DNA of 64,000 nucleotides from an uncultured Acetobacteraceae bacterium (GTDB lineage Bacteria > Pseudomonadota > Alphaproteobacteria > Acetobacterales > Acetobacteraceae). Shown here one piece after another: positions 4,667 through 8,521 of this stretch; within the stretch, counting starts at the first letter, position 1, and each line of letters begins with the position of its first letter. The DNA lies in the NCBI GenBank assembly GCA_903907955.1, contig CAIVPZ010000032.1:1-64000 (forward strand), in the 5' to 3' direction. Made by a program: the position numbers and the translations under genes. A model generated the notes under the pieces. The model was not told where the DNA came from. It made no database searches and was given only the letters and a program-made list of their open reading frames with translations.

Positions 4667-7116
4667 AACGGACCGGGCTGGTCACGCGCATTGCGCAGGC
4701 CGCAACCTATGTGTTTGGCGGCAGCACGCCGGATGGCTGGTTTCCGCCGCTGGCCCCGCTGGCGCCGCTGGCGCCGCCGGAGGTGGCCGGGCGGCAGTTC
4801 GATTACCCGTCCGGCTACAACCTCAACAGCCAGCCGCGCGCCGACGAGGCGATCGGTTTTCCGCAGTTGCGGGCGCTGGCGGAAAACTACGACCTGCTGC
4901 GGCTGGTGATTGAAACGCGCAAGGACCAGCTTGCAAATTTGCGCTGGTCGATCAAGCCGCGCGACAAGGCGAAGCACGGCGGCGACGATCCGCGGGTGAA
5001 GCGGATCACCGATTTCCTGGCCTACCCGGACCGCGAGCACGCCTGGGACCAGTGGCTGCGGATGCTGGTGGAAGACCTGCTGGTGATCGACGCGCCGGCG
5101 CTGTATCCGCGGCGCACCCTGGCCGGCGACCTGTATGCGCTGGAGCCGATCGACGGGGCGACGATCAAGCGGGTGATCGACGATTACGGCCGCACCCCGC
5201 TGGCGCCCACCCCGGCCTATCAGCAGGTGCTGCACGGCGTTCCAGCGGTCAATTACACCACCGACCAACTGCTGTATTTCCCGCGCAACCTGCGCACCAA
5301 CCGGGTCTATGGCTACAGCCCGGTCGAGCAGATCGTGATTACCGTCAACACGGCGCTGCGCCGGCAGATGCACAAGCTGGAATTCTACACCGCCGGCTCG
5401 GTGCCGGACGCGCTGGGCGGCGTGCCGGACAACTGGAATGTCGGGCAGATCGGCGAGTGGCAGCAATACTGGGACGCGCTGCTGACCGACGATACCGCGG
5501 CGCGGCGGCGGGTGCGCTGGGTGCCGGCGGCGATCGCCAAGGCGTTCGTGCAGACCAAGGAAGCCGCGCTGAAAGACGAGTTCGACGAATGGCTGGCGCG
5601 GATTGTCTGCTACGCGCTGTCGGTGTCGCCGCAATGGGCGATCAAGCAGATGAACCGCGCCACCTCGGACACGGCGCAGGAACAGGCGCTGCAGGAAGGT
5701 CTGGCGCCGTTGCAGGCCTGGGCGAAGTCGGCGCTGGACCGCATCCTGGCGCGCTGTTTCGACGCGCCGGACCTGGAACTGAGCTGGGAGGAAACCCAGG
5801 AGATCGACCCGGGCGATCAGGCGAAGGTGGCGGACACCTATCTGCGCGCCGGGGTGCTGACGATCAACGAAGTGCGGTCCGACCTCGGCCGCGACCCGGT
5901 GGACGGCGGCGACGAACCGCTGCTGTTCTTCGGGTCCGGCGTGGTGCCGCTGCGCGAGGCGCTGACCGCCGGCGAGGCCGCGCCGGGCGATCCGGCGCCG
6001 GGCGATCCGGCGCCGGGCGATCCGGCGCCGCCCTCCGCGGCGATGGCCAAGCGGGCCGGCGGGCATCGGGAAGCCGATCTGGCCGGCGTTTGGCAGCACT
6101 TCTTCGACAGCGAGGCGCCGCGCATCGCGCGCCAGGTGGCGCATGCTTCCCGCCGCGAGACGCCCATGGCCAAGGCGGCCGGCGACGGCGGCGAAGCGGC
6201 CGACGAAGACCCGGAACAACCTGAGCTGCCCGCCGCCGTTGGAGCGGCTGGCGCGGCGGCGGCTGCCGAGACTCCGCTGTCGGCGGAGGAAGCCGCGGCG
6301 ATCGCCGCCGCTGCCGGCAACGGCACCGGCACGGCCGGCGCCGGTGCAGCCGCCGCCGCCGCGGCGGAAGGCGGCGAAGCGGGCATCGGCGAGGCGATCG
6401 CGGCGGCGATCGAGGAGGCGGTGGCGGCGGCGCCATGGCCCGCCATGCAGCAGACAACCGCGGTGGCGCTGGGCGCGGCGGCGCGCGGCGGGGTGGCGGA
6501 GGGCACCGGCGCGCTGGGGCAGATCGTCGCCGGCATCAGCACGCAGGACATCACCAATCTGGCCAACCCGCGCGCCGTGGCCTGGGCGCAGGCGCGCGCC
6601 GCCGAGCTGGTGCGCGGGGTGGCGCAGACCACGAAGGACAGCATCCGCGCCCTGGTGGTGCGGGCCGAGCAGGAAGGCTGGAGCGTGGCGCGGCTGCAAG
6701 GCGCGATCGAGACGGCGCACGCCTTCGCCCCCGAGCGGGCGCTGCTGATCGCGCGCACCGAGCTGGCGCGGGCCGACATCCAGGGCAACCTGACCGGCTG
6801 GCAGGGGGCGATGCAGCGCACCGGGCTGACCGTCCAGAAGCGGGTGGTGCTGGGGATGAACGAAAAGCACTGCGTGGCCTGCACCAGCGCGGTGCTGGAG
6901 GGCGCGATCGCGCTGGACGACCGTTTCAACGTCGGCTTTGCGCCGCCGTTCCATCCGAACTGCTACTGCACGCTGATCCCGGTGGTCGGCGGGGCGATGG
7001 CGAAAAGCGCCGACCAGCCGCCGGTGCGCGCGGCTGCCGGGGCGATTTGGCCCGCTGAGACGGGCGCGGCCGAGCGGCCATTCTGCGACCCTGCAACACA
7101 AGGAGCTGCCACATGA
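4663..7116 (+). CDS. Portal protein fused to Mu F-like minor head protein
   Basis: This 817-residue protein joins two normally separate head proteins. Residues 1 to about 420 are a portal: 'ENYDLLRLVIETRKDQLANLRW' near residue 75, and the conserved 'YSPVEQIVITVNTALRRQ' helix near 220. A low-complexity Ala/Gly/Pro/Glu linker (about 425-600) carries a short tandem PGDPA repeat. The end (about 640-790) is a MuF domain with 'RALLIARTELARADIQGNLTGW' (about 690-712) and the cysteine/histidine set 'HCVACTS' (735) and 'HPNCYC' (764). The portal forms the DNA gate; MuF proteins bind it and may be injected. No frameshift or internal stop was seen, so the fusion appears genuine. Confidence 0.85.
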   Translation: MKRTGLVTRIAQAATYVFGGSTPDGWFPPLAPLAPLAPPEVAGRQFDYPSGYNLNSQPRADEAIGFPQLRALAENYDLLRLVIETRKDQLANLRWSIKPRDKAKHGGDDPRVKRITDFLAYPDREHAWDQWLRMLVEDLLVIDAPALYPRRTLAGDLYALEPIDGATIKRVIDDYGRTPLAPTPAYQQVLHGVPAVNYTTDQLLYFPRNLRTNRVYGYSPVEQIVITVNTALRRQMHKLEFYTAGSVPDALGGVPDNWNVGQIGEWQQYWDALLTDDTAARRRVRWVPAAIAKAFVQTKEAALKDEFDEWLARIVCYALSVSPQWAIKQMNRATSDTAQEQALQEGLAPLQAWAKSALDRILARCFDAPDLELSWEETQEIDPGDQAKVADTYLRAGVLTINEVRSDLGRDPVDGGDEPLLFFGSGVVPLREALTAGEAAPGDPAPGDPAPGDPAPPSAAMAKRAGGHREADLAGVWQHFFDSEAPRIARQVAHASRRETPMAKAAGDGGEAADEDPEQPELPAAVGAAGAAAAAETPLSAEEAAAIAAAAGNGTGTAGAGAAAAAAAEGGEAGIGEAIAAAIEEAVAAAPWPAMQQTTAVALGAAARGGVAEGTGALGQIVAGISTQDITNLANPRAVAWAQARAAELVRGVAQTTKDSIRALVVRAEQEGWSVARLQGAIETAHAFAPERALLIARTELARADIQGNLTGWQGAMQRTGLTVQKRVVLGMNEKHCVACTSAVLEGAIALDDRFNVGFAPPFHPNCYCTLIPVVGGAMAKSADQPPVRAAAGAIWPAETGAAERPFCDPATQGAAT
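5980..6030 (+). repeat. 15-bp tandem repeat, 3.4 copies, in portal-MuF linker
   Basis: The unit GCGCCGGGCGATCCG repeats at 5980, 5995 and 6010, with a partial fourth copy. It encodes (APGDP)n in the linker between portal and MuF domains. The copies are identical at the DNA level, which points to recent slippage; the length is a multiple of three, so copy change keeps the frame. Confidence 0.9.
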
Positions 7117-7400
7117 TCCGAGCCACCCCACGGGCCCCGCGAAATTCGGTCGTCACCACGGCGGGCACGCCTGTGATCGTGTTCGATGTCGGTGGCACCG
7201 ACAACGTGGCGGACATCATCAACCCGACCACCGCGCCCGGCGCGCTGTATGTGGACATCTTCACGACGGCAGCCATCGGATTGCCCACCTCGCTGCCGCT
7301 GCAACCGGGGCAGTCCTACCGGGTGTCGGGGCCGATCTCGACGGCGATCACCGTGGTGTCGGCCTACAACGGCCATGCGTTCAACGCCGTGGCATACTGA
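7113..7400 (+). CDS. Small phage virion-associated protein, unknown
   Basis: The 95-residue product is beta-rich with an immunoglobulin-like feel ('TTAGTPVIVFDVGGTDNVADIINPT...LPLQPGQSYRVSGPISTAITVVSAYNGHAF'). A strong Shine-Dalgarno AAGGAG at 7100-7105 and an ATGA overlap with the portal stop support the start. It may be a head decoration or stabilising protein from its place in the head module, but no family was recognised. Confidence 0.55.
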   Translation: MIRATPRAPRNSVVTTAGTPVIVFDVGGTDNVADIINPTTAPGALYVDIFTTAAIGLPTSLPLQPGQSYRVSGPISTAITVVSAYNGHAFNAVAY

Positions 7401-7466
7401 GCGGGCGTTCGGGGGCGGCTTAGACGGCGCTTGACGCGGTTTGAGTCCAAAGCGTAGCGTTCTGGC

Positions 7467-7609
7467 GGGGCCTGATAACCCCAGGAGTTGCCCATGATGA
7501 CGATCAGTTCGAGGCGTGGCAGAATGCCTCTGCCGGGGGCCGCTGGCGCATGTCCAAGGCGCAAGCCCAAAGGCCAGCGGGCCGTTACTCCAATGCGGTT
7601 ATCAGCCCC
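7467..7609 (+). ncRNA. c4-like antisense RNA element upstream of the antirepressor
   Basis: The + strand transcript folds into a closed multi-stem element. The outer stem is GGGGCCTGATAACC (7467-7480) with GGTTATCAGCCCC (7597-7609), one base bulged, continued by GGAGT (7484-7488) with ACTCC (7587-7591). Inside are GGCAGA/TCTGCC (7518-7523/7529-7534) and GGCCGCTGGC/GCCAGCGGGCC (7538-7547/7573-7583, one bulge). The segment CTCCAAT-5 nt-TATCAG (7588-7605) is also colinearly complementary to CTGATA-6 nt-ATTGGAG (7641-7659), which contains the ribosome site of the next gene. In phages P1, P7 and P4, c4-type RNAs control antirepressor synthesis this way. The AAGCCCAAAGGCC stretch at 7563-7575 resembles the conserved core I associate with c4 RNAs. 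A covariance search was not possible. Confidence 0.55.
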
Positions 7610-7613
7610 CGGC

Positions 7614-7659
7614 GCTGCGCCTGCCGCGCAGCAACGCGCCCTGATAGGCGCGATTGGAG
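7614..7659 (+). promoter_or_regulatory. Hairpins and antisense target covering the ribosome site of the coupled gene
   Basis: Two perfect hairpins stand in series: GCTGCGC/GCGCAGC (7614-7620/7626-7632, loop CTGCC) and CGCGCC/GGCGCG (7635-7640/7647-7652, loop CTGATA). The second loop and the following ATTGGAG (7653-7659) are exactly complementary to the TATCAG and CTCCAAT elements of the upstream c4-like RNA. TTGGAG is the Shine-Dalgarno sequence of the gene at 7668. Pairing in cis or trans would hide the ribosome site; this is inference from complementarity. Confidence 0.5.
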
Positions 7660-7667
7660 ACACCCGA

Positions 7668-7886
7668 ATGCAAATCTACGTGGACCCGAAATACCCCACG
7701 CAGGCGCTCGATAGCGTCTGCTGGCAGTTGAAGATGCTGCGGTGCCTGTTGAGCCAGGACAGCAAGAACGGCATCGACCTGGATGAGGACGCGCTGGCCG
7801 GCATGTGCGAACTGCTGAATGCCATGGCGGACTGCGTGACCGAGGTTGGGCAGATGGCCGGCGCGATGGGGAGGAAGGCGGCATGA
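7668..7886 (+). CDS. Small protein coupled to the antirepressor (icd-like position)
   Basis: The 72-residue acidic, cysteine-containing product (MQIYVDPKYP...MGRKAA) is predicted to be mostly helical, with no known domain. The Shine-Dalgarno TTGGAG at 7654-7659 lies seven to eight bases before the ATG. An in-frame ATG at 7494 with its own AGGAG could give a longer, Arg/Pro-rich 130-residue form, but that extension runs through the structured RNA and looks non-coding. The stop overlaps the antirepressor ATG (ATGA), so translation of this gene probably drives the antirepressor, as icd does for ant in phage P1. Sequence similarity to Icd is not claimed. Confidence 0.65.
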   Translation: MQIYVDPKYPTQALDSVCWQLKMLRCLLSQDSKNGIDLDEDALAGMCELLNAMADCVTEVGQMAGAMGRKAA

Positions 7887-8521
7887 ACGCCATGATGACG
7901 ACGACGCTGAACTACAATCACCATGCGCTTGAGGCCGTCCACATGGGCGGTCAGATGTGGCTAAGGGGGGCACAGATCTGTGCCCCCCTTGGGCTCGCCA
8001 GCGAGTTCGTTTTGCGCCGGATCGTGGATCGCAACATCGACGAGTTCACGCCGGACGAGACGCGGCTTGTGACCCTTCCCACGGCGGGAGGGCCGCAGGA
8101 GGTCCGCGTGTTTTCGCTGCGTGGCGCCCGCCTGCTGGCGCTGCTGGCGCGCACGCCGGAGGCGAAGGCATTCCGGCGCTGGGTGCTCGATCTGCTGGAA
8201 GGCAAATTACGCCGCCAGCCGATGCAAGGATCGCTGGCGCTTCCGGGCACCTATCAGCTTCCGGCCGATACGGTGCGCGCGCTCGATCAGGTGGCATCGC
8301 TGATTGAAGCCGGACACCCGGCGCTGGCAGCGCTGCAAGACCTGCGGATCGGTGCCCGCGCGCTGCCGTCCGATCCGACGCTGGATCACCTCGCCGATCG
8401 GTGGCGCGGCATGCGACAGATGCAGGGCGACGTGAACAGGGGCTTCCGCACGATCGTCAAGGAAGCCCGCCGCTATGGGTATTCGGTCGAGGCGGTAAAG
8501 CTGCGGGCGCGGGCGGCGTAG
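7883..8521 (+). CDS. BRO-N domain phage antirepressor
   Basis: The 212-residue protein has an N-terminal BRO-N-like domain (about residues 8-110): 'GQMWLRGAQICAPLGLAS' is the 'WF.G.dva..LGy' motif, and 'VRVFSLRGARLLALLARTPEAKAFRRWVLDLLEG' is the closing helix typical of phage antirepressors. The C-terminal part is helical and basic (GFRTIVKEARRYGYSVEAVKLRARAA) and may oligomerise or bind its target. Such proteins inactivate the phage repressor or bind DNA. Finding it inside the head operon is unusual. A 28-bp palindrome lies in its 5' coding part, and a c4-like RNA sits upstream. It is translationally coupled to the small gene before it. Confidence 0.8.
   Translation: MNAMMTTTLNYNHHALEAVHMGGQMWLRGAQICAPLGLASEFVLRRIVDRNIDEFTPDETRLVTLPTAGGPQEVRVFSLRGARLLALLARTPEAKAFRRWVLDLLEGKLRRQPMQGSLALPGTYQLPADTVRALDQVASLIEAGHPALAALQDLRIGARALPSDPTLDHLADRWRGMRQMQGDVNRGFRTIVKEARRYGYSVEAVKLRARAA
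7963..7990. repeat. 28-bp perfect palindrome inside the antirepressor gene
   Basis: The left half AAGGGGGGCACAGA (7963-7976) is followed at once by its exact reverse complement (7977-7990). In RNA it forms a 12-bp stem with a GAUC loop, extendable through T7962-G7991 (a wobble pair) and C7961-G7992. It lies about 80 bases into the antirepressor coding region and encodes its conserved LRGAQICAPL segment. It could attenuate translation or transcription, be an RNase III target, or bind a dimeric protein as DNA. Confidence 0.85.

Follow-up and report, generated by a model that had tools for sequence, protein, structure and literature searches.

The element described here lies within a window of 64,000 nt (the whole stretch of DNA that was analyzed, to which all positions refer). 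The neighboring genes were identified with Pfam and PHROG as Mu-like head genes (terminase, portal/Mu F-like protein, and other head genes), and among them lie a folded RNA core with two sets of complementary sites, a small gene and an antirepressor gene. The positions that a preliminary description of this DNA had given for the antisense, both of its targets, the 72-codon gene, the ATGA overlap and the antirepressor all proved correct (table 1). The antirepressor, which the same description had assigned to the BRO-N type, passed the cut-off of the Pfam Bro-N family (26.9 bits against 25.6, E = 7.7e-6) and corresponds to the PHROG anti-repressor Ant (E = 9e-31), which confirms the assignment. 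No repressor gene on which it might act was identified; the window begins at a contig end. A search of the DNA at 7113-8521 against phage records matched nothing.

Table 1. Features of the element and of the two genes that follow it (positions of the 64,000-nt window).
Feature	Position	Strand	Basis or remark
Possible promoter, TTGACG-18 nt-TAGCGT	7431..7460	+	motif and spacing equal in L011 (sequence comparison)
a1, CTGATAACC, upstream copy, complement of a'	7472..7480	+	
b1, GGAGT, upstream copy, complement of b'	7484..7488	+	
C4-like three-way-junction RNA core	7532..7613	+	folds, covariance model, covariation
Core stem P1	7532-7540/7605-7613	+	predicted fold
Core stem P2, with GCAA tetraloop and AUGUCCAA/CAAAG internal loop	7541-7579	+	predicted fold
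Core stem P3	7580-7600	+	predicted fold
b', CTCCAAT, antisense of the ribosome site	7588..7594	+	wholly within the P3 loop (7586-7594)
a', TATCAG, P3-P1 junction	7600..7605	+	spans junction 7601-7604 plus two flanking bases
Hairpin GCTGCGC-CTGCC-GCGCAGC, directly 3' of the core	7614..7632	+	retained in L011
a2, CTGATA, downstream target for a'	7641..7646	+	
b2, ATTGGAG, downstream target for b'	7653..7659	+	includes the ribosome site of the small gene
Small gene, 72 codons, in the position of icd	7668..7886 (ATG 7668, stop 7886)	+	
BRO-N antirepressor gene, ATGA overlap with the small gene	7883..8521 (ATG 7883, stop 8521)	+	Pfam Bro-N, PHROG

The small gene is probably translationally coupled and its ORF matched no Pfam family and no PHROG family. 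Its product shares 70% identity over 63 residues with the counterpart in a related viral contig (L011), in which the block likewise follows ORFs that resemble Mu-type head genes as judged by eye. Among 200 genomes of the family to which the window genome belongs, the small protein was found in its own genome only (1/200); the expectation that the same block would occur elsewhere was borne out for other phages but not for the small gene within this family sample. The ATG that follows b1 (7494) shares the reading frame of the small gene, and with a TTG at 7488 taken as the start the ORF would comprise 132 codons. The idea that the small protein extends N-terminally over the core was nevertheless rejected, because the two frames differ in L011 and the extension is therefore not conserved. 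Within the BRO-N gene, positions 7963-7990 form a perfect 28-nt palindrome (AAGGGGGGCACAGATCTGTGCCCCCCTT), and the relatives carry a hairpin with differing arms at the same codons; this hairpin exceeded 98% of synonymous recodings in stability at five of nine loci, did not do so at L257 and was weak at L255 and L258. A Mu transposase match elsewhere in the same genome, on contig C114, was rejected as the left end of the phage; it sits in an apparent Tn7/TniQ-like element. This short contig (locus L248) contains an apparent Tn7/TniQ-like transposition gene set and a recombinase.

The bipartite antisense of the window, CTCCAATGCGGTTATCAG (7588-7605), is part of the RNA core. The cores of the window, L011 and three further loci (L017, L003, and L117) were folded singly and each gave a closed three-way junction; the c4 RNA of phage P1, folded alike, gave the same topology, in which the annotated b' falls into the P3 loop and the annotated a' into the P3-P1 junction. 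The window core scored 87.7 bits with the family covariance model. In the predicted fold of the full-length window transcript, a1/b1 pairs with its own antisense (-33.2 kcal/mol by energy calculation), the core is opened and the ribosome site is free, whereas the full-length fold of L011 prefers the repressing pairing instead. The a1/b1 and a2/b2 states are mutually exclusive and close in predicted stability. The possible promoter motif was graded as weak because a consensus promoter scan did not call it. The hairpin that follows the core has no U-run and is therefore not an intrinsic terminator, and no intrinsic terminator was found 3' of the core in the window. A CCA tail after stem P1, which could favor RNase P, the enzyme that releases C4 RNA from its precursor, is absent from the window core and present in 21 of 63 cores of the family.

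The layout resembles that of known phage immunity systems. The immI operon of phage P1 is annotated as a1-b1-c4-a2-b2-icd-ant and is matched by the window feature by feature, in agreement with the P1/P7-like order (c4 with a/b sites, small gene, ant) proposed in the preliminary description. The predicted fold of the window RNA shares with the C4 RNA of P1/P7 (RF01695, clan CL00128) the stems P1-P2-P3 around a three-way junction, a P2 capped by a tetraloop and an antisense split between the P3 loop (b') and the P3-P1 junction (a'), and the locus shares the targets a1/b1 upstream and a2/b2 downstream, with b2 at the ribosome site, followed by a coupled small gene (72 codons in the window, 73 in P1/P7) that overlaps the antirepressor gene by ATGA. 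The window RNA differs in its longer P2 with a conserved AUGUCCAA/CAAAG internal loop and a GNRA tetraloop. No likeness of the proteins to Icd and Ant of P1 had been visible initially, and none emerged: the small protein gave no alignment with Icd, and the antirepressor shows essentially no similarity to Ant1. In P1, the b' segment of c4 blocks the ribosome site and a' confers specificity (PMC5320573). The CI RNA of phage P4, which matches RF01695, likewise holds a central antisense between an upstream (seqA) and a downstream (seqC) target on one transcript; its pairing with seqA and seqC causes transcription termination (PMC4825925) and thereby regulates replication genes, whereas the second target in the window is a ribosome site. 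The sar RNA of phage P22 is also an antisense RNA that represses an antirepressor gene, but it pairs with the ant mRNA and has neither the core nor the double-target layout of the window (general knowledge and PMC12197685).

The proposed check with the Rfam C4 covariance model (gathering score 45 bits) was negative, with no match up to E = 10 in either the whole window or the narrow region. The same model detected P1 (68.8 bits) and P4 (74.9 bits), so the test works and the window RNA is not a member of the C4 family. Conversely, a covariance model of the window's family (R2) detects neither the P1 nor the P4 C4 RNA, which leaves the architecture alone in common and lends no support to a common origin. 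The earlier label "c4-like" therefore holds for the kind and order of the parts but not for membership in the C4 family, as the RNA belongs to a separate family akin to sRNA-Xcc1.

Chance statistics from the window by itself are only moderate: dinucleotide shuffles of the window equaled the downstream match in 21/3000 cases and the upstream match in 7/3000. The comparison with L011, which shares 78% DNA identity with the window over the block, revealed compensatory changes. The L011 antisense reads CTCCACG...TTCTCA against CTCCAAT...TATCAG in the window, and its targets changed in step (CGTGGAG and TGAGAA) in both the downstream and the upstream copies, the window pairs CTCCAAT/ATTGGAG and TATCAG/CTGATA thus becoming CTCCACG/CGTGGAG and TTCTCA/TGAGAA. 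L117, with an unrelated downstream gene, carries a further antisense that both of its target copies match. Cross-energies favored the own pair in the window and in L011, and in L117 by a small margin downstream. Among 63 aligned cores, 96.8% of the cells are paired and double-sided changes occur in 22 of 26 pairs, with a covariation score of 0.73 against 0.21 for shuffled and 0.05-0.11 for slid controls; this alignment was fitted to the covariance model and is hence biased toward it, and the contrasts to the slid and shuffled controls are large.

The complementarity to the own targets exceeded that to the targets of other loci. In the 63 relatives, the match to the own upstream 140 nt had a mean score of 13.4, compared with 8.5 for other loci, and was not reached in any permutation (0/5000); the reversed-sequence control was null and the far-upstream control near null (210/5000). 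The upstream score was at least 12 in 55 of the 63 relatives. The downstream match was also significant but due to a subset (16/63 with a score of at least 12). The upstream match over the 63 relatives is decisive. Across the family a1/b1 is better conserved than a2/b2, which indicates that a1/b1 is not incidental.

A covariance model built from five sequences (R1, the window and relatives) matched in 34 out of 385 alphaproteobacterial genomes, with up to seven matches per genome; a scan for the pattern ATGTCCAA...AAAG returned mostly random matches and L117 as the sole new true member. Two kinds of member can be distinguished, those whose second target covers the ribosome site, like the window, and those with the upstream target only. 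A U-run lies within 75 nt 3' of the core in 29 of 48 relatives outside a hand-picked first group (the group with ribosome-site targets), and is missing 3' of the core in the window and in most of the nearest BRO-N-linked relatives. The core precedes a BRO-N-like gene at nine distinct loci (the window, L011, L017, L003, L253, L254, L255, L257, and L258). At these loci, the core covariation score was 0.59 (0.18 when shuffled), the own downstream run measured 8.2 nt against 5.3 with no permutation reaching the own value (0/20000), and the own upstream match was reached by 1/20000 permutations. Both the double-target complementarity and the compensatory changes in the stems and in the antisense/target pairs that the preliminary description had anticipated were thus recovered in relatives (L011, the 63 cores, and the nine BRO-N-linked loci). 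Four loci (L017, L003, L257, and L258) are without the small gene, and there the partner of the loop is the ribosome site of the BRO-N gene itself; control of the antirepressor, not of the small protein, is therefore the conserved purpose. Five genomes (G451, G724, G445, G605, and G1073) contain four to nine copies of these RNAs each, located before varied genes (porin-like, lipoprotein-like, helix-turn-helix), and look as if the module were mobile itself or common to many islands.

The only Rfam kin of the window RNA was sRNA-Xcc1 (RF02221, no clan), at scores below its gathering score of 53 bits: the window reached 18.4 bits (E = 0.51), L017 29.2 bits (E = 0.0035) and the alphaproteobacterial relatives up to 37.2 bits. 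Despite these low scores the alignments run end to end through P1, P2 with internal loop and tetraloop, P3 and the junction; the P2 loop sequence of sRNA-Xcc1 is unlike that of the window. In the reverse test, R2 gave 26 matches in a set of 30 sRNA-Xcc1 loci, most with E < 0.01 and the best with 2.5e-7. As judged from these sequence models, the window's family and sRNA-Xcc1 have a common architecture and a detectable profile similarity. At four loci (L174, L178, L179, and L254), two copies of the core, or a core and an sRNA-Xcc1 neighbor, lie approximately 0.1-1.5 kb apart.

Above its cut-off, sRNA-Xcc1 occurs in 35 out of 299 sampled genomes of the phylum. The own upstream match scored at least 12 at 28 of 30 sRNA-Xcc1 loci (0/5000 permutations) and the downstream match at 13 of 30. 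The genes 3' of several of these loci (L217, L220, L223, L224, L228, L234, L238, and L241) encode BRO-N, KilA-N, P22_AR_N, Rha or SymE, and the loci have upstream, and often downstream, complementary sites. SymE has been reported after sRNA-Xcc1 in Xanthomonas integrons (PMC12444791). Until now, sRNA-Xcc1 has been regarded as a trans-acting sRNA under virulence regulators; a search of the open-access literature found neither an established target nor a link to C4 or to antirepressors.

Probably, the element encodes a C4-like antisense RNA that keeps the small gene and the BRO-N antirepressor from being translated. A transcript starting near 7465 would carry a1/b1, the three-stem core, a2/b2, the coupled 72-codon gene and the BRO-N gene, and the folded core would expose both parts of the antisense, b' through the P3 loop and a' where P3 meets P1. 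Pairing with a2/b2, whether within one transcript or between two, would mask the small gene's ribosome site, so that neither this gene nor, through the ATGA overlap, the antirepressor would be translated. The a1/b1 copy would compete for the same antisense and might either disarm it in the primary transcript or serve as an additional target. In this way, a resident prophage would silence its own antirepressor and that of an incoming relative (immunity), and divergence of the loop would lead to heteroimmunity. The promoter, a processed RNA and a target of the antirepressor are parts that we infer, as are translational repression, preferred because the second target is of the P1 kind and the window has no terminator, and action in trans, proposed because the antisense is displayed in loops of a closed core. 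Points against this explanation are the missing match to the C4 model, the weak promoter motif, the window fold with a free ribosome site and the missing CCA tail. The system had been thought to be new; it is new for this phage, but the type of mechanism is already known from P1/P7 and P4.

Two alternatives appear unlikely to a similar degree. In a purely cis-acting attenuator, a1/b1 and a2/b2 would vie for the central segment within one leader and no free RNA would be made. Both pairings are indeed strong and mutually exclusive and the window yielded no processing signal, but a diffusible RNA needs just such a conserved closed three-stem core with a loop-displayed antisense, the RNAs of P1 and P4 that share this topology are processed and act in trans (PMC4825925, PMC5320573), and sRNA-Xcc1 has been observed as a free 88-nt RNA (PMC2996969). 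Alternatively, the RNA might act mainly through premature transcription termination, as P4 CI, itself a C4 family member, does via seqA and seqC, rather than by blocking the ribosome site. The better conservation of the upstream target in the family and the frequent U-runs outside the hand-picked group agree with termination, whereas the U-run is missing from the window and from most of the BRO-N-linked loci closest to it, and the second target lies on the ribosome site. A type I toxin-antitoxin system, with the 72-codon protein as the toxin, the RNA as the antitoxin and the antirepressor as an incidental neighbor, is much less likely still: a related RNA precedes SymE toxin genes (L234; PMC12444791), but in the four loci without the small gene it is the BRO-N ribosome site itself that the RNA targets. 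That the complementarity and fold arose by chance, or as a side effect of coding sequence, would fit the unexceptional shuffles of the window and the G+C-rich region but is refuted by the covariation and permutation tests in relatives.

Beyond the proposed translational control of this antirepressor, sRNA-Xcc1 and the alphaproteobacterial family look like C4-type switches placed before antirepressors or toxins, an outcome of more interest than the locus itself. It is likely that the window RNA, about 60 mostly alphaproteobacterial relatives that score below the Rfam cut-offs, and sRNA-Xcc1 form one large superfamily of antisense immunity RNAs of the C4-like kind, which differ in their loops and in the targets that match them and are located before interchangeable antirepressors (BRO-N, KilA-N, Rha, ORF6N, P22_AR), toxins such as SymE and other cargo. 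If true, sRNA-Xcc1, described as an sRNA under virulence control, would be an immunity switch that was captured or is mobile and would gain a testable function, in that pairing of its loop with a ribosome site would control the next downstream gene. C4/CI-type immunity has so far been described for a small number of enterobacterial phages and for Rfam relatives of these, and a covariation-supported counterpart is now present in a Mu-like phage of the Alphaproteobacteria. That this counterpart belongs to a different, widespread RNA family suggests that immunity switches of this type occur far more often than annotation shows. Because a short loop decides the target, cross-immunity between prophages would be predictable from sequence.
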